Part shown: positions 928 through 30,153 of the stretch, piece by piece
Layout: each line of letters opens with the position of its first letter
Position numbering within the stretch: the first letter of the stretch is position 1
Origin: Verrucomicrobiota bacterium
GTDB taxonomy: Bacteria; Verrucomicrobiota; Verrucomicrobiia; Verrucomicrobiales; DEV007
Direction of reading: 5' to 3'
NCBI GenBank assembly: GCA_963205275.1
Contig: CAUJIH010000013.1
Span: forward strand, 1 to 64,000
Length of the DNA stretch: 64,000 bases
Program-made: the position numbers and the translations under genes
The notes under the pieces: model-generated
Told to the model about the DNA's origin: nothing
Databases searched by the model: none
What the model saw: the letters and a program-made list of their open reading frames with translations, nothing else

Positions 928-1728
928 ATGTCGTCGATTCACCCTACTGCACTTATTTCTTCCTCCGCCATCATTGGCGAAGATGTCCGCATCGGCCCCT
1001 ATGCCATCATTGAAGACGATGTCGAAATCGGGGACCACTGCGTAATCGAAGCAGCAGCTCAACTGCGCTCCGGAACTCGCATTGGCTCTCGCTGTGTTAT
1101 CGGCTCTGGAGCGATTCTAGCATCGGACCCACAGTCGATCAGTTTCGATAAGCAAATCCGATCTGGAGTCCGCGTTGGGAATGGAACGATTCTAAGGGAA
1201 TACGTCACCCTCCATCGCAGCGTCCGTGAAGGAGGAGAAACCGTCGTCGGTGAAGGGAATTTCCTCATGACAGGAGCGCATGTGGGACATGACTCCGTGG
1301 TGGGAAATCAGAACGTTCTCGCAAATAACACCCTCCTCGGAGGGCATGTCGAAATCGGTAATCACTGCTTTCTTGGGGGGGCTAGTGCTTTTCACCAATT
1401 TGTTCGGGTCGGCGATTATGTGATGGCACAGGGACATTCAGGCTTCTCACTCGATCTCCCCCCTTATGTGATCGGCTCCGGTGTCAACTTCGTATCGGGC
1501 CTGAATTCTGTTGGTCTGAGACGAGGAGGATTCTCCAAAGAGGAGCGTCAGCAAATCAAGGAGGCCTACCGATCCGTTTTTCGGAACACCCAGAGTCTAG
1601 TTGAAACCCTTCGCAGTGTGGAAGGGCAAGTTCTCTTCCCTTGCACCTCCGCTTTTTACGACTTCCTTCGCTCCGACTCCAACCGCGGGGTCTGCATCCG
1701 CAGGCAGCGGGCTAAAGAATCTGATTAG
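928..1728 (+). CDS. lpxA: UDP-N-acetylglucosamine O-acyltransferase LpxA
   Basis: Catalyses the first step of lipid A synthesis, transfer of a 3-hydroxyacyl chain from acyl carrier protein to the 3-OH of UDP-GlcNAc, in the cytosol. The 266-aa protein has the left-handed beta-helix of hexapeptide repeats over about residues 5-190, the catalytic-His region (GAHVGHD), the family block GGASAFHQFVRVG, and the C-terminal helical signature GLRRGGFSKEE. Length agrees with E. coli LpxA (262 aa). It stands alone rather than in the classical lpxD-fabZ-lpxA-lpxB cluster, but lptD follows, so both concern LPS. Confidence 0.95.
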   Translation: MSSIHPTALISSSAIIGEDVRIGPYAIIEDDVEIGDHCVIEAAAQLRSGTRIGSRCVIGSGAILASDPQSISFDKQIRSGVRVGNGTILREYVTLHRSVREGGETVVGEGNFLMTGAHVGHDSVVGNQNVLANNTLLGGHVEIGNHCFLGGASAFHQFVRVGDYVMAQGHSGFSLDLPPYVIGSGVNFVSGLNSVGLRRGGFSKEERQQIKEAYRSVFRNTQSLVETLRSVEGQVLFPCTSAFYDFLRSDSNRGVCIRRQRAKESD

Positions 1729-6967: not shown

Positions 6968-8545
6968 TTAGTGTGCCCCTGTGGTAGGCAGAGGTCCCAG
7001 CTCACGCGCTTTTTTCACCTGCTCAGGAGTCACTTCCGTTCCATTGTTTCCGAAGCTGTTATAGACGTATGTCAGCACGTTGGCGATTTCCTCATCCGTG
7101 AAGTCGAGCTGGGGCATGACGCTGTTGAACTGTGCTCCGTTGACAGTAATCTCACCCGTCATCCCGAAGGCGACCACGCGGATCGCACGATCAACATCAG
7201 CATTCAGATAATCGCTCTTGGCCAGTGGCGGGAATGCCATCGGGACCCCCTGTCCTTCCGCCTGGTGACAGGCCAAACAGACACGAGCGTAGATGGACTT
7301 ACCGAACGCAATTCTCTCATCCTTGTTCTTCGCGACAGGAGCTGCAGGCACAGATGCCTGAGGCATCTTCTGAATATCGCTGCCTTCCGGCTGATACACT
7401 AGATCGCTCAGCTTGCCCGAGTAAATGACTTTGTCTTCTTCCCCCGAGACTTTTAGCATGCCGAGAGCCCCCTTGTTGAATGCTCGCAGCAGAGCGTGAT
7501 CCACAAGAATGTAAGTGCCCGGCACATCTAGGCGAAATTCTGTGATCGCCGCAGCTCCCGGAGGAATCATAGTCGTTTGCACATTATGCGTCACGGTAGT
7601 TCCGCCTTCTGCGTGGAGATTGTCAAAGATTTCACCGATCACATGGAAGGAACTGGACAGGTTCGGACCACCATTGCCCACGAATAAGCGAACACGCTCT
7701 CCCACCTTTGCCGTAAGAGCGTTATCTCCGGCGATCGCACCGACTGATCCGTTGAAGACTACGTAATCAGGATGCTCATTCAGAGCTTTCTCCATATCGA
7801 AGGGCTGGAGGCCCGGCATCCCGTATTTTCCCTTGGTGTAGAAGTCGCCCTGACAGATGTAATACTCACGATCCACCGGTGGCAGTCCTGCCTTTGGCTC
7901 GACGTAGATCAGTCCATACATCCCGTTGGCTACGTGCATCCCGACCGGTGCAGTGGCGCAGTGGTAGATGAACAGACCAGGATTCAGCGCCTTGAAGCTG
8001 AAAACTGATTCATGTCCAGGAGCGGTCATGGATGAGGCAGCACCGCCTCCAGGTCCTGTCACCGCATGAAGATCGATATTGTGCGGCATCTTGCTCGTCG
8101 GATGATTCGCCAGAGTAAACTCCACTTCGTCGTTCTGTCGAACGCGGATAAACTTTCCAGGGACATGACCGCCGAAGGTCCAGTAAGTATAGCTGGTACC
8201 ATTCACCATCGGCTTTTCCACTTCGATCACCTCTAGACGCACCTTGACTCGAGACGGGTGCTTACGAGTAATCGGAGGCGGAACGTGAGGAGGATCGGTG
8301 AGAACTGCGATTTCCTCGCCCTGCAGTGGCTCATCTTCCTCGACGGCAGAATCACTGCGAAACGGAACACCTGGCGGCTGACTTGACTGAAGTTTCGCTA
8401 CTTTCGCAGCGACTTCTTCGGCGAGTTCGTCCAAGGACTGGGTTCCGGAAGCCGAGTGGCGCTCGCATGATGCGAAAAACGCACTAGTTCCCAGAAGTGC
8501 GAGTAGTGCGGTAATACGGATTTTTCGATTCCGATGGAGTTTCAT
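6968..8545 (-). CDS. nirK: Copper-containing nitrite reductase with C-terminal cytochrome c domain
   Basis: Reduces nitrite to nitric oxide, the committed step of denitrification, in the periplasm. The 525-aa lipoprotein starts at ATG 8545, giving a signal peptide ending in a lipobox (SAFFASC, Cys27); an upstream frame extension lacks this logic. Two cupredoxin domains span about 95-370. Type 1 copper ligands are His155, Cys196, His204 and Met209; type 2 ligands are His160, His195 and His350; Asp158 and His301 are the catalytic pair. A class I cytochrome c domain follows at about 405-500 with CLACH (423-427) and axial Met477, as in the heme-fused NirK of Ralstonia pickettii. The NirV-SCO fusion gene lies directly downstream; no nor gene is in the window. 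Confidence 0.93.
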
Positions 8546-17599: not shown

Positions 17600-18820
17600 T
17601 CATCTTTTCGCGTCCTCACGAACCTTCTTCCACCGCTTGTGCATCCAGATCCACTGCTCGGGATGGCGGAGGATGATGCGTTCGATGCTCTCATTGAATC
17701 GCTTGGTATTTCGCGAGAGAATGTCCTTCGTCCGTCCCTTTCCCTCCACCTCGACCGGTTCCTCGAAACGCAGCACATGCGTCCCATCTAGCTCGCGCCA
17801 ACTCGACGACGGAATGACCGGAGCTCCCGTGAACTGTGCTAGGACCGCCAGACTCTTGAACGTATGAGCCGAATGTCCGAAAAATTCAGATGGAATGCCG
17901 TATTTCTTGATCGTGAACTGATCGAAAATACAGACGACGATTCGATTATCCTCCAGCAGATCGAGAATATCGTCCAGAGAGCCGCTCTTCTCCAGTGTCC
18001 CAAACCCTGCCTTCTGAAAGCGACGCATCACCATCCAGTTGAACCACGCCGGCTTGAGAGGACGACGAATAAAGTGCAATGCCCCTCGATATTGCGGAAA
18101 CTGAGCCATACCAGCCACCGTGGATACCTCCCAGTTGCCAAAGTGTCCAGCAAGCAGGAGCACTCCCCTCCCCTTTTCCCGTGCTTCGGCGAGATGCTCG
18201 AAGCCCTCGATACGGACCATCTTCGTTCGACGCGCCTGTGTCATGAAAGCCATTTGAACGAACTCGATCAGGAACTTCACAAAGTGGCCGTAGTAGGCCT
18301 GGGCAATCTCGATGATACGCTCCTCGTCCAGCGTATCTCCGAAAACGCGATGTAGATTCTCCAGCACGACTTTTCGCCGGAGAGGCAGCGCATGATAGAT
18401 CAGTCTACCGTACCAGGGCACGGCCATCGTCATCGGCTCAGGGGACGCGACGGCGGTCGCATTCGTCGCAGTATGAGTCGTCGAAATCGAAATCGATGCG
18501 ACGCGGTAGCGGTTCATCACCATACGAGCACGCTCAGATGGCCGAATTCTAGGTTGTCCGTAACCGCCCTTCGAGACAGAAAAATCGTGTGGTTCGATCG
18601 TCCCCAGACATATCTCTTTGGGAAATAGCTTGCAACAGGCTTCCTTGGAGGCGAATCGCGCCGCCAATTTCTGGAGACGTCCATCTCCCTTTCCTGCATC
18701 ATCCAGTTCTTCCTGCGAAAAAAACCGCAACAGCCCTTCGGAGTCAAGATCGCGACAGAGCTTGTCGATTCGTGAGATTTCAACAGTGTCGATCCCCTGT
18801 CGCATCAAAAAGTCGATCAA
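17600..18820 (-). CDS. Fusion of holo-ACP synthase (AcpS) and LpxL/HtrB-type lysophospholipid acyltransferase
   Basis: One uninterrupted 406-aa frame encodes two enzymes. Residues 1 to about 130 are an AcpS-type phosphopantetheinyl transferase, with GIDTVEISRI (metal ligand Asp11), RFASKEACCKLF (Glu60) and a C-terminal SISTTHTATNATAV; these enzymes attach the phosphopantetheine arm to acyl carrier protein. From about 135 onward is a lipid A/LPLAT acyltransferase with the catalytic HFGNWE motif and FDQFTIKKYG. The usual N-terminal membrane helix of LpxL is missing, replaced by the AcpS part. The start is probably TTG 18820, preceded by GAGG six bases away; ATG 18805 is the alternative. Joining ACP activation to an acyl-ACP-using enzyme is functionally coherent but unusual. 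Confidence 0.85.
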   Translation of the reverse strand: MIDFLMRQGIDTVEISRIDKLCRDLDSEGLLRFFSQEELDDAGKGDGRLQKLAARFASKEACCKLFPKEICLGTIEPHDFSVSKGGYGQPRIRPSERARMVMNRYRVASISISTTHTATNATAVASPEPMTMAVPWYGRLIYHALPLRRKVVLENLHRVFGDTLDEERIIEIAQAYYGHFVKFLIEFVQMAFMTQARRTKMVRIEGFEHLAEAREKGRGVLLLAGHFGNWEVSTVAGMAQFPQYRGALHFIRRPLKPAWFNWMVMRRFQKAGFGTLEKSGSLDDILDLLEDNRIVVCIFDQFTIKKYGIPSEFFGHSAHTFKSLAVLAQFTGAPVIPSSSWRELDGTHVLRFEEPVEVEGKGRTKDILSRNTKRFNESIERIILRHPEQWIWMHKRWKKVREDAKR

Positions 18821-18920
18821 ATGACACCTCGTTCTCGAAAGCCGTGCCCGATGCGAACGTGAGAAACTCTCGTAAATCCCCTTTCTCGGGAGGTAAGGCA
18901 ACTCAGATAAAATCGAACCC

Positions 18921-19997
18921 CTAGATCGCAACGGGCTTCCCGGAGGTAGCAGAAGCATAGATCGCATCGATGATCTGCATCAGCGCCAATCCCTGTTCCG
19001 GAGTATTCAGAGGCTCTGCACGCCCTTCGATCGTCTCGACGAAATTCGCCGCCGATGCGATCCGTCCCATGTCCTCGCAGGGTTCTAACGAAATTGAGCG
19101 ATCCACCCGTTCTCCATTTTCCTGCGTGTAGAGTTCGCAACGATCAATCGCTGTATCGTCCAGCCCATCCGTTCCGAACAGTCTCTCGATTTTCCCTCCC
19201 GCACGGACTCCCTGAAAGACCACCGAAACCTCCTCACGCTTCACCATCTCTGCCCAAGACATCTGAAAGCTGAGAACCTGCCCCGTGTCAAATCTGACAA
19301 ATCCATGCGCAGCAGACTCCACATCAGTCGTTCCGCCTTCCCGATCAGGAATACCCCAGGGGCCTTTGAACTCCTTGAGCGTGATGTGATCGTCAAAGGT
19401 ATTCGCCAGAACATAGGTCGGTGTAGGATTCCCCATCAGGTAAATCGCCAGATCCATCATGTGCAGAAGGTCGATCACCGGACCACCGCCTGAGAGAGCC
19501 TTCGTGGTAAACCAACCTCCAAATCCCGGAATTCCAGTGCGGCGGATCCACTTCGCCTGCGCCGAATTGATACGTCCGACCACTCCGCTCTGAATCAGTT
19601 TCACCATTTCACGCGACTCCGGGCGAGCGCGGTTGTTGAAATTGAACATGAGATGCTTTCCCGCCTGATCACGAGCTTCGATCATGTGGCGCACCTCGCC
19701 TGCACTGAGTGCAGGCGGCTTTTCACAAAAGACATGCTTCCCGGCTCCGAGAGCGCCGATTGCGATAGGTGCGTGGTATTTGTTCGGTACGATTACCGAA
19801 ACCGCGTCAATATCCGTACGCAACATTTCCGCCACATCACCATACACATGCTCGATCTGATTCGCATCAGCCGCACTTTGCGCTGCCTCGACGTTCACAT
19901 CTGCGATGGCCACGACCTCGGCTCCTCCTTTCCGAAAACCGTCGATGTGGTAGCGGACCATTCCGCCCGCTCCTATGATACCAATTTTTGTTGCCAT
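18921..19997 (-). CDS. Gfo/Idh/MocA-family NAD(P)-dependent oxidoreductase
   Basis: A 358-aa cytosolic dehydrogenase of the family that oxidises or reduces sugars and inositols. The N-terminal Rossmann motif GIIGAGGMVRYH (about residues 6-17), the family signature HVFCEKPPALSAGE with the catalytic Lys in EKP (about residue 95), and a C-terminal alpha/beta domain are all present. It lacks a Tat signal, unlike many Verrucomicrobial paralogues, so it acts in the cytosol. It ends 100 bases before the AcpS-acyltransferase fusion on the same strand. Substrate is not inferable; 3-keto-sugar chemistry is possible given other sugar genes nearby. Confidence 0.9.
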   Translation of the reverse strand: MATKIGIIGAGGMVRYHIDGFRKGGAEVVAIADVNVEAAQSAADANQIEHVYGDVAEMLRTDIDAVSVIVPNKYHAPIAIGALGAGKHVFCEKPPALSAGEVRHMIEARDQAGKHLMFNFNNRARPESREMVKLIQSGVVGRINSAQAKWIRRTGIPGFGGWFTTKALSGGGPVIDLLHMMDLAIYLMGNPTPTYVLANTFDDHITLKEFKGPWGIPDREGGTTDVESAAHGFVRFDTGQVLSFQMSWAEMVKREEVSVVFQGVRAGGKIERLFGTDGLDDTAIDRCELYTQENGERVDRSISLEPCEDMGRIASAANFVETIEGRAEPLNTPEQGLALMQIIDAIYASATSGKPVAI

Positions 19998-27979: not shown

Positions 27980-29470
27980 ATGAAGTTCACTCTTTTTACC
28001 CTTTCTTTTCTCTTCGGAACTCTCTTTGCCACCAGTGCCGCTGAGCCAGGGCCATGGGTGGACTTGTTTAATGGGAAAGATCTCTCGGGCTGGATTCAGA
28101 GGGGTGGTAAAGCGCTATACTCAGTCGAAGATCACTGCATCGTCGGCACGACGGTTCCCGATACACCGAACTCTTTTCTCTGCACGGAGAAGAACTACGG
28201 GAACTTCATTCTGGAAGTCGAATACAAGGTCGATCCAGCCCTGAATTGCGGGATTCAGATTCGCTCGAACAGCCTGCCGGACTACAAAAACGGAGTCGTC
28301 CACGGCTATCAAATGGAAATCGATCCCTCAGATCGCGGCTGGAGCGGCGGAATCTACGATGAGAGTAGGCGTGGCTGGCTGAATGATCTGTCGAGGAATC
28401 CTGCGGCTCGCTATGCATTCCGCCAAAATGACTGGAATCACTACCGACTGGAGGCTGTCGGCGATCACATCCGCACCTGGGTGAACGGAGTCCCAGCAGC
28501 CGATCTGATCGACGGGATGACCCCATCCGGCTTCATCGCTCTACAGGTGCATGGCATAGGCAAGCGCCAGGAGACGCTGCAAGTGCGTTACCGGAATATC
28601 CGCATCCAAGATCTAGGGGATCAGACAGAGTATCGTGTAAAAAGCGACCCTGTATACTCTCATTCAGGACCGTTGGTGAAGGAAGGAGCCGAATTTCGTC
28701 AGCTCGGAGGTGGTTATGCCTTCACCGAGGGGCCAGCGCTCGGACCCGACAAGAAGATTTACTTCACCGATATTCCGAACAATCGCATCCATGCCTACGA
28801 TCCGTCGAACGGAGCGATCAAAGTCTGGCGAGAATCGTCAGGCGGAGCCAATGGACTCTTTTTTACTCCTGCAGGAGCACTTATCGCCTGCGAAGGAACC
28901 GCTCGGCGATTAACGAGAACCGATTTCTCCGGAGAAGTCACTGTGCTCGCCGACCAGTTCAATGGGAAAAAGCTCAACAGCCCCAATGATGTCGTCCCCG
29001 ACGGCTCTGGCGGATTCTATTTCACCGATCCTCGCTACGGAAAGAGCGATGACCGAGAGCTGGATGTCGAGGCTGTTTACTACGTCGACAAGAAAGGAGC
29101 GCTCTCCCAGATCATTACGGATCTGGTGCGTCCGAACGGACTCATCCTCTCGCCTGACGACCGAATCCTCTACGTGGTCGATCAGGCGGGCAAGAGCATC
29201 TACGCCTACGATGTGCCCACCCCTGGGCAACTAGAGAAGAAACGTCTCTTCGCCCCGGTGGGTGGGGATGGGGTGACCATCGACAGACTCGGGAATCTCT
29301 ACACGACTTGGAATAAAGGAATCCTAGTTCTGTCTCCCGAAGGGAAAGAGCTGCTCCACATCACTCCGCCAGAGGCTCCCGCAAACTGCGTTCTGGTCGG
29401 AAAGACGCTCTATGTCACCGCTCGGACAGGATTCTACGCCATCGACTGGGAAGTGGAAGGTGTGAGGTGA
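27980..29470 (+). CDS. DUF1080 domain fused to SMP-30/gluconolactonase domain, exported
   Basis: A 496-aa exported protein starting at ATG 27980 with a signal peptide (FTLSFLFGTLFATSAA). The first half (about 25-215) is DUF1080, the concanavalin-like fold now often called 3-keto-disaccharide hydrolase, with WVDLFNGKDLSGW, CGIQIRSN and WNHYRLEAVGDHIRTWVNG. The second half (about 235-490) is an SMP-30/gluconolactonase six-bladed propeller with AFTEGPALGPDKKIYFTDI, NSPNDVVPDG, FTDPRYG and RPNGLILSPD containing the metal ligands. The pairing could couple sugar-bond cleavage to lactone opening. Its end overlaps the oppositely oriented PPTase gene by 37 bases. Confidence 0.88.
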   Translation: MKFTLFTLSFLFGTLFATSAAEPGPWVDLFNGKDLSGWIQRGGKALYSVEDHCIVGTTVPDTPNSFLCTEKNYGNFILEVEYKVDPALNCGIQIRSNSLPDYKNGVVHGYQMEIDPSDRGWSGGIYDESRRGWLNDLSRNPAARYAFRQNDWNHYRLEAVGDHIRTWVNGVPAADLIDGMTPSGFIALQVHGIGKRQETLQVRYRNIRIQDLGDQTEYRVKSDPVYSHSGPLVKEGAEFRQLGGGYAFTEGPALGPDKKIYFTDIPNNRIHAYDPSNGAIKVWRESSGGANGLFFTPAGALIACEGTARRLTRTDFSGEVTVLADQFNGKKLNSPNDVVPDGSGGFYFTDPRYGKSDDRELDVEAVYYVDKKGALSQIITDLVRPNGLILSPDDRILYVVDQAGKSIYAYDVPTPGQLEKKRLFAPVGGDGVTIDRLGNLYTTWNKGILVLSPEGKELLHITPPEAPANCVLVGKTLYVTARTGFYAIDWEVEGVR

Positions 29471-30153
29471 GAGATGCTGAGAGCAAAGGGAGTGCCGGCC
29501 AGCACACACCCGATCGCACGATGAGGCAGATCGATCGACTCTAGCCGGACGTCCGGAAAAATCGGCTCCAGAATGCCGACGGGACGCGACTCGTCGAAGG
29601 TCAATTCGATCTTCTGGGGAGCGAGGGAAAACCCCTGCCCGTCCACCTTCATCCGCGCCTCCTTCGCCGTCCAGATTCGGAAAAAGGCCAGTGGACGCTC
29701 TGCGGGAGCAAAGCTTTCCATCCATTCGATCTCGCTCGGACGAAAACAGCGTCGTGCCAGTCCGGCGTGATCGACTTGGCGATCCACTCGCTCGATATCC
29801 ACTCCGATCCGGGGAGTATCGCCGACGGCAAACAGGGCTCGATCCTCCGAGTGAGAAAGATTAAAACCCAGATCGCTGTCTTTCAGGTACGGCTTCCCGT
29901 GCGGTCCGGTGACGAAGGTCAGTTCTGCCGGGTCACGATTCAGCCTGCGTGCCAGTAACAAGCGCATCATCCCACGCCCACGAATGTAGCGTTCCCGATG
30001 GACCGCAAAGCGGAAGGCTGCCGCTCGCTCCTTTTCGTCTTCGCTCAACCAAGATTCCGCCAAGGTCAAAAGCAGAATCTGCTCTTCCTCCAGCGAGAAT
30101 GAAGTAACGGCGATTTCGAGTGAAGGAGCGGGAGAGGATGGAGACGGCGACAT
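29434..30153 (-). CDS. Sfp-type 4'-phosphopantetheinyl transferase
   Basis: A 239-aa enzyme of the Sfp/Gsp class that moves phosphopantetheine from CoA to carrier proteins of polyketide, peptide or specialised fatty-acid systems. The domain order is intact: RFAVHRERYIRGRGMMRLLL, GPHGKPYL and FNLSHSEDRALFA, then the magnesium motif GVDIERVDRQ and FFRIWTAKEARMK with catalytic Glu and Lys. Its 3' end overlaps the DUF1080/SMP-30 gene tail to tail. Because an AcpS-like domain is also encoded in this window, the Sfp-type protein presumably serves other carrier proteins; no such targets are encoded here. Confidence 0.9.
   Translation of the reverse strand: MSPSPSSPAPSLEIAVTSFSLEEEQILLLTLAESWLSEDEKERAAAFRFAVHRERYIRGRGMMRLLLARRLNRDPAELTFVTGPHGKPYLKDSDLGFNLSHSEDRALFAVGDTPRIGVDIERVDRQVDHAGLARRCFRPSEIEWMESFAPAERPLAFFRIWTAKEARMKVDGQGFSLAPQKIELTFDESRPVGILEPIFPDVRLESIDLPHRAIGCVLAGTPFALSISHLTPSTSQSMA

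Follow-up and report, generated by a model that had tools for sequence, protein, structure and literature searches.

Can one polypeptide both prime a carrier protein and unload it onto a lipid? The question is raised by a gene of a Verrucomicrobiota bacterium in which a domain of the AcpS type, a class of trimeric enzymes that move phosphopantetheine onto ACP, is followed in frame by an acyltransferase of the LpxL type. ACP is primed by AcpS, and acyl-ACP is the substrate of LpxL-type enzymes (PMC9386255, PMC9597891). An earlier note on this DNA had proposed that such a fusion could couple carrier activation to acylation. The window analysed here is the whole stretch of 64,000 nucleotides, which belongs to contig C13 of a draft genome of 109 contigs.

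The AcpS-LpxL fusion is real. The ORF reading of the window gives one minus-strand open frame at 17600-18967, in which the gene is placed at 17600..18805 (minus strand, 401 aa) from the open frame and from colinear full-length relatives. Its start is the ATG at 18805, with an M-R-x-GID start that is kept in relatives, and its stop lies at 17600-17602; the coding part is 17603-18805 and holds both domains in the same frame. PF01648 and PF03279 are both matched in this one ORF, which bears out the first description of it as AcpS followed by a lipid acyltransferase. A Gfo/Idh-type oxidoreductase gene lies on one side of the fusion gene and an ECF sigma factor gene on the other, and promoter and terminator scans around it gave nothing above chance.

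The AcpS-type phosphopantetheinyl transferase (PPTase) domain comprises residues 1-124 (18434..18805, minus strand) and is defined by PF01648, TIGR00556, a fold match and the invariant residues D6, K54 and E55. In Pfam, ACPS PF01648 is matched at 32 bits (cut-off 25), and in NCBIfam the PPTase domain model TIGR00556 is passed at 50.2 bits (cut-off 45.35), while the score for the holo-ACP synthase equivalog TIGR00516 stays a little below the threshold (50.4 bits, cut-off 59.8), and no fused relative in the genus reaches it either (best 55.6). Predicted residues 1-124 resemble E. coli AcpS 5vbx in a structure search (Z 17.1, 2.2 A). The putative Mg-binding residues D6 (codon 18788-18790) and E55 (codon 18641-18643, both on the minus strand) align with the Asp and Glu of known AcpS; they are the Asp11 and Glu60 of the earlier note, in which residues were counted from the TTG at 18820 and not from the ATG at 18805. 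D6, R12, K54, E55, K59 and H111 are invariant across 46 fused sequences from two phyla, and the canonical AcpS segment GTGIG is replaced in fused AcpS by FPKEICLG or similar. On these profile and fold matches the domain is assigned to the 4'-phosphopantetheinyl transferase superfamily, AcpS type.

The LpxL/LpxM-type acyltransferase domain occupies residues ~131-397 (17615..18415, minus strand) and is defined by PF03279 and a fold match to LpxM. Lip_A_acyltrans PF03279 is matched in Pfam at 144.8 bits (cut-off 22.3) over profile positions 41-295, and predicted residues 138-397 resemble LpxM 5kn7 (Z 27.6, 2.5 A) in a structure search that also matched PatA. Many LpxL-family NCBIfam models are matched with scores under their own cut-offs, among them TIGR02207 (LpxL/LpxP lauroyl/palmitoleoyl transferase, 94.1 against 297.8) and TIGR02208 (MsbB, 52 against 336). 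The second domain is assigned from its profile to the LpxL/HtrB acyltransferase family (PF03279), members of which also serve other acceptors, as PatA and VexE do (PMC9597891). The HFGNWE string is present as residues 221-226 (18128-18145, minus strand), and H221 and E226 of this H-x4-E motif are invariant in the 46 fused sequences.

The membrane helix usual in such enzymes had been described as missing. Indeed none is predicted in the fusion, where 19-residue hydropathy windows peak at 0.97, but its absence is nothing special to the fusion, because a second LpxL paralogue, encoded on contig C48 of the same genome, is equally without a helix (peak 0.94). The structure of the fusion, predicted from 46 fused relatives, has a mean pLDDT of 90 and a pTM of 0.87. 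In close pairs, where it could be computed, dN/dS is 0.007-0.10 in both domains, which indicates strong purifying selection on each of them, and we infer that both are catalytically active.

The two domains are joined by a linker of residues 125-130 (18416..18433, minus strand), whose length is shared by 45 of 46 relatives. The earlier note took the junction for the trace of two merged overlapping genes, and the features to which it pointed, an in-frame Met-Thr-Met at about 18425-18433 and an out-of-frame TGA at 18438-18440, are both present. The Met-Thr-Met, however, is limited to this species, and the segment is without any Met in 30 of 46 fused sequences. A recent merger at the Met-Thr-Met is excluded by its lack of conservation and by the constant linker length, and since the fused domains also form one old group, the merger reading of the junction is unsupported.

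A complete fusion was found in 25 of the 34 genomes of the genus, this genome counted; in G013 it lies over two contigs and in G001 it is clipped by a contig end. Stops within some of the genus matches fall at the C-terminal end, beyond the true stop. Outside the genus, 23 searched genomes of the same order lacked the fusion, and of 387 evenly sampled Verrucomicrobiota genomes this one alone carried it. No unfused operon precursors occur among those 387 genomes, because the fusion and its dedicated ACP are both missing there outside this genome. A scan seeded on the AcpS domain, covering 84,980 species with one genome each, gave 49 loci, of which 48 are one-frame fusions and one (L133) is clipped by a contig end inside the AcpS domain. 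The comparison with sister genomes suggested earlier has thus come out for the fusion, both in the genus and in the 48 full loci of the species scan. The 49 loci come from MAGs under the labels Verrucomicrobiales, Limisphaerales, Spartobacteria and subdivision 3, with five labelled Betaproteobacteria/Burkholderiales (L156, L163, L166, L171 and L172). The loci are few (49 in 84,980 species) and lie in several lineages; the fusion is therefore scattered, rather than common. Three MAGs labelled Akkermansia muciniphila (L153, L162 and L168) group in the tree with Spartobacteria- or subdivision-3-labelled sequences, and their labels look wrong.

In an unrooted AcpS-domain tree of 122 columns, all 50 fused AcpS domains fall together on the same side of a branch supported at 100/100. 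This fused clade is long-branched, the standalone AcpS of the same genus are separate from it, and the five proteobacterial sequences form one group nested among those of Verrucomicrobiota. The tree points to an old conserved family, and its simplest reading would be a single fusion event with later transfer to a Burkholderiales-type lineage.

The surroundings of the fusion in relatives suggest what it may be for. In 48 related loci a ketosynthase gene directly precedes the fusion, and where contigs permit, the full gene order is SDR1, SDR2, ACP, dehydratase, KS1, KS2 and fusion, the last being the terminal gene of the operon. SDR1 carries Y-x6-K, the signature of enoyl reductases, and its matches to the FabL model lie at 319-352 bits (cut-off 328); because it is FabL-like, the chains can be saturated. 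SDR2 has Y-x3-K and is FabG-like. The dedicated ACP is ~138 aa long with its serine within AESIDF, and the dehydratase (~275 aa) is FabA/FabZ-like in its second half. KS1 retains Cys-His-His, as KS2 mostly does. A few loci have Ser or Ile in KS2 where the active-site Cys would stand, with both His kept, and such losses recall partners that are moving toward a chain-length-factor role. In four Burkholderiales-type loci one gene family follows the fusion directly or in second place, and its member in L156 matches LpxO, a lipid A hydroxylase (452 bits, cut-off 500). No acyl-ACP synthetase, thioesterase or exporter gene recurs beside the operon in the related loci.

In this genome the operon context around the fusion has been lost. 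The seven-gene set is split over three contigs into pieces that are intact and keep the old order: SDR1-SDR2-ACP on C92 (L182:6266-8203, with the ACP gene at 7787-8203), dehydratase-KS1-KS2 on C78 (L181:7752-11230) and the fusion on C13. The window also holds the gene of LpxA (928..1728, plus strand), which scores 269.7 bits against NF003657 (cut-off 226) and 264.9 against TIGR01852 (cut-off 231); since LpxA is the first lipid A enzyme, a lipid A route exists in this genome.

With G001 and G013 counted, the fusion is present in 27 of the 34 genus genomes and the dedicated ACP in 26; 24 genomes have both and five have neither. Among the 24 genomes at least 90% complete, 21 have both, three have neither and none is discordant (Fisher p 0.0005, a value that ignores shared ancestry). 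The genome search found no PPTase here besides the fusion and a Sfp-type enzyme at 29434..30153 (minus strand; PF01648 at 63.7 bits, with AASDHPPT_N), which most genus genomes also have. Two ketosynthase matches in this genome (G000:C93:77345-78613 and G000:C101:58723-59538) lie inside frames of 4026 and 3659 codons, respectively; these are large modular polyketide-synthase-like genes and likely clients of the Sfp-type PPTase. A canonical standalone AcpS occurs in 8 of the 34 genus genomes and in three of the 21 near-complete fusion-bearing ones, and was not found in the other 18. The near-complete genome G020 has the fusion as its only detected PPTase. In G032 (91% complete) the Sfp-type enzyme is the only one detected. 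Outside the genus, most fusion-bearing Verrucomicrobiota have a standalone AcpS-like gene, as judged by score and coverage and not case by case. This distribution fits an origin of the fusion as an extra, dedicated PPTase; most of the genus would later have lost the housekeeping AcpS, whose part would be taken by the fusion, by the Sfp-type enzyme or by both.

We favour, with moderate confidence, a reading in which a dedicated type II fatty-acid synthase serves the acylation of an envelope lipid and has the fusion as its last, bifunctional enzyme. The AcpS domain would load 4'-phosphopantetheine onto the dedicated 138-aa ACP, and a saturated, perhaps very long, chain would be extended on this ACP by KS1 and KS2 together with FabG, the FabZ-like dehydratase and the FabL-like enoyl reductase. 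Once the chain is complete, the LpxL-like domain would take it off the ACP and attach it to an envelope lipid, for which a lipid A precursor is the likeliest candidate; the AcpS domain may double as the acyltransferase's binding site for the carrier being unloaded. Because the operon encodes every step of an elongation cycle along with an ACP for it, it is most economical to suppose that the fusion primes and unloads that ACP, and that both domains serve it. Since the fusion normally ends its own small fatty-acid-making operon, bacteria that carry it probably make a special envelope lipid. Invariant catalytic residues, low dN/dS in both domains, the two predicted folds, strict co-occurrence with the ACP, the operon order, the FabL-like SDR1, the LpxO-like neighbour, LpxA and the parallel with the rhizobial acpXL-lpxXL operon speak for this reading. 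Against it count the missed TIGR00516 cut-off, the replaced GTGIG segment, a Sfp-type PPTase that could prime the ACP, the separation of the fusion gene from the other pathway genes in this genome, the other acceptors of the LpxL family, and a dedicated ACP whose full-length resemblance is closer to the ACPs of polyketide-type clusters in Streptomyces than to AcpXL. The coupling of carrier activation to acylation that the earlier note proposed is plausible on predicted activities, and gains from the dedicated ACP in the operon of relatives.

The resemblance of the ACP to those of Streptomyces is the starting point for an alternative that we consider unlikely, in which the operon makes a polyketide-like product of the highly reducing type II PKS or aryl-polyene-like kind, to be anchored by the LpxL domain to some lipid that is not lipid A. 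Compared with two Streptomyces clusters of polyketide type, putatively of the highly reducing type II kind, identity is about 35% for the ACP (over 115-118 aa, against ACPs of 136-137 aa), 43% for KS1 and 28% for KS2, and in one of the two clusters read an acpS gene of its own adjoins the ACP gene; ketosynthases and lipid acyltransferases are also paired in aryl polyene clusters (PMC8253772). The enoyl-reductase-like SDR, however, favours saturated chains, acyl-ACP synthetase, thioesterase and exporter genes do not recur at the operon, and the Burkholderiales-type MAGs have an LpxO-like neighbour. An aryl polyene cluster in the strict sense is rejected. Such clusters have acyl-ACP synthetase, thioesterase, LolA-like and exporter genes and no enoyl reductase (PMC8253772); here none of the former recurs, and a FabL-like enoyl reductase is present.

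It is less likely still that the AcpS domain is a mere docking module for ACP, with priming left to the Sfp-type enzyme or a standalone AcpS. The Sfp-type PPTase conserved in this and most genus genomes, the standalone AcpS-like gene in most carriers outside the genus and the altered GTGIG segment would all suit a docking role, but the six residues invariant in 46 sequences go beyond what docking needs, and in G020 the fusion is the sole PPTase detected. We give very little weight to the idea that the fusion simply joins the genus's housekeeping AcpS to its housekeeping lipid A acyltransferase, with no tie to the dedicated ACP. The lack of a detected standalone AcpS in 18 of the 21 near-complete carriers of the genus, and the position of the fusion apart from the ACP operon in this genome, are what it would predict; against it, a standalone AcpS-like gene co-exists with the fusion in most genomes outside the genus, where the fusion lies inside the ACP operon, co-occurrence with the ACP is strict, and this genome has an additional LpxL paralogue. 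The chance that an assembly or sequencing artefact joined two separate genes is negligible: the genome is a draft in 109 contigs, but this origin is ruled out by homologues with the identical one-frame fusion, which 25 genomes of the genus have, as do 48 records from an independent collection.

As far as the searchable literature shows, outside which subscription papers mostly lie, the conserved fusion is undescribed; neither an AcpS-acyltransferase fusion nor such a pathway in Verrucomicrobia was found there. We know of no described case in which priming and off-loading are paired in one polypeptide, and if both domains are active, phosphopantetheinylation of a carrier and its off-loading to lipid are held together in this one. 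The fusion marks a dedicated lipid pathway in phyla with little-studied lipid A, forms with the 138-aa ACP a simple genetic marker for it, and raises the question of how most species of the genus live without a standalone AcpS. A wider picture can be offered tentatively, as possible rather than probable: an undescribed, scattered pathway supplying the outer membrane with an acyl group that is very long or special in some other way, passed from Verrucomicrobiota to Burkholderiales, whose prime-and-unload enzyme has replaced the lost AcpS in most species of one genus.

Each half of the protein has well-known counterparts. With group I AcpS (E. coli 5vbx, V. cholerae 3qmn, B. subtilis 1f7l) the first domain shares the fold (Z 15-17) and the Mg/CoA-site Asp and Glu, but those enzymes are not fused, whereas the form joined to the acyltransferase has GTGIG replaced and makes a separate long-branched clade. 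LpxL, LpxM and PatA (5kn7, 5f2t) share the fold (Z 27) and H-x4-E with the second domain, and the AcpS domain takes the position of the N-terminal membrane helix of LpxM. The fungal type I fatty-acid synthase places an AcpS-type domain inside the machinery whose ACP is primed, and the C-terminal PPT domain of its alpha subunit (2wat, 6ql9) matches the AcpS domain in fold; that enzyme is a megasynthase with its ACP in cis, whereas in the fusion the partner of the PPTase is the off-loading acyltransferase, and the ACP stands as a protein of its own. The two Streptomyces clusters (L216 and L217) are on plasmids and have a similarly long ACP and a ketosynthase pair, and the separate acpS gene beside the ACP gene of L216 is an unfused parallel of the fusion; they differ in that AcpS is unfused and no LpxL-type gene is annotated within 9 kb.

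The nearest likeness is to the AcpXL/LpxXL system of rhizobia, whose product is a 26-34 carbon hydroxy acid on lipid A. The operon acpXL-fabZXL-fabF2XL-fabF1XL-adh2XL-lpxXL makes this very-long-chain fatty acid of lipid A, and its last gene moves the special chain to lipid A (PMC11901934). Our protein searches recovered the S. meliloti operon by the dedicated ACP and separately by the LpxL domain, ~4.6 kb apart. One record with the operon (L215, CP090106.1 2177000-2186000) bears the title pSymB but has a length of 3.7 Mb, and may be a chromosome under the wrong label; in a relative the operon is chromosomal (PMC11901934). Both systems have a cluster that ends in an LpxL-family acyltransferase and also encodes a dedicated ACP, a FabZ-like dehydratase, two ketosynthases and a reductase-type gene. 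This layout is found in relatives of our genome; in our genome itself the same genes are present but dispersed. The rhizobial cluster, by contrast, lacks a PPTase and has a zinc-type dehydrogenase in place of the FabL-like and FabG-like SDRs, and the ACP and dehydratase are longer here. On NCBIfam equivalogs whose cut-offs are passed by the proteins of the S. meliloti operon, the scores here are 53.1 against 83 for the ACP (NF005079), 101.6 against 273 for the acyltransferase (NF005120) and 339.8 against 629 for the ketosynthase (NF005076). Because its proteins fall far under these cut-offs, the fusion operon is not filed as a member of the AcpXL/LpxXL system; by analogy it would nevertheless work like acpXL-lpxXL, its closest working model.
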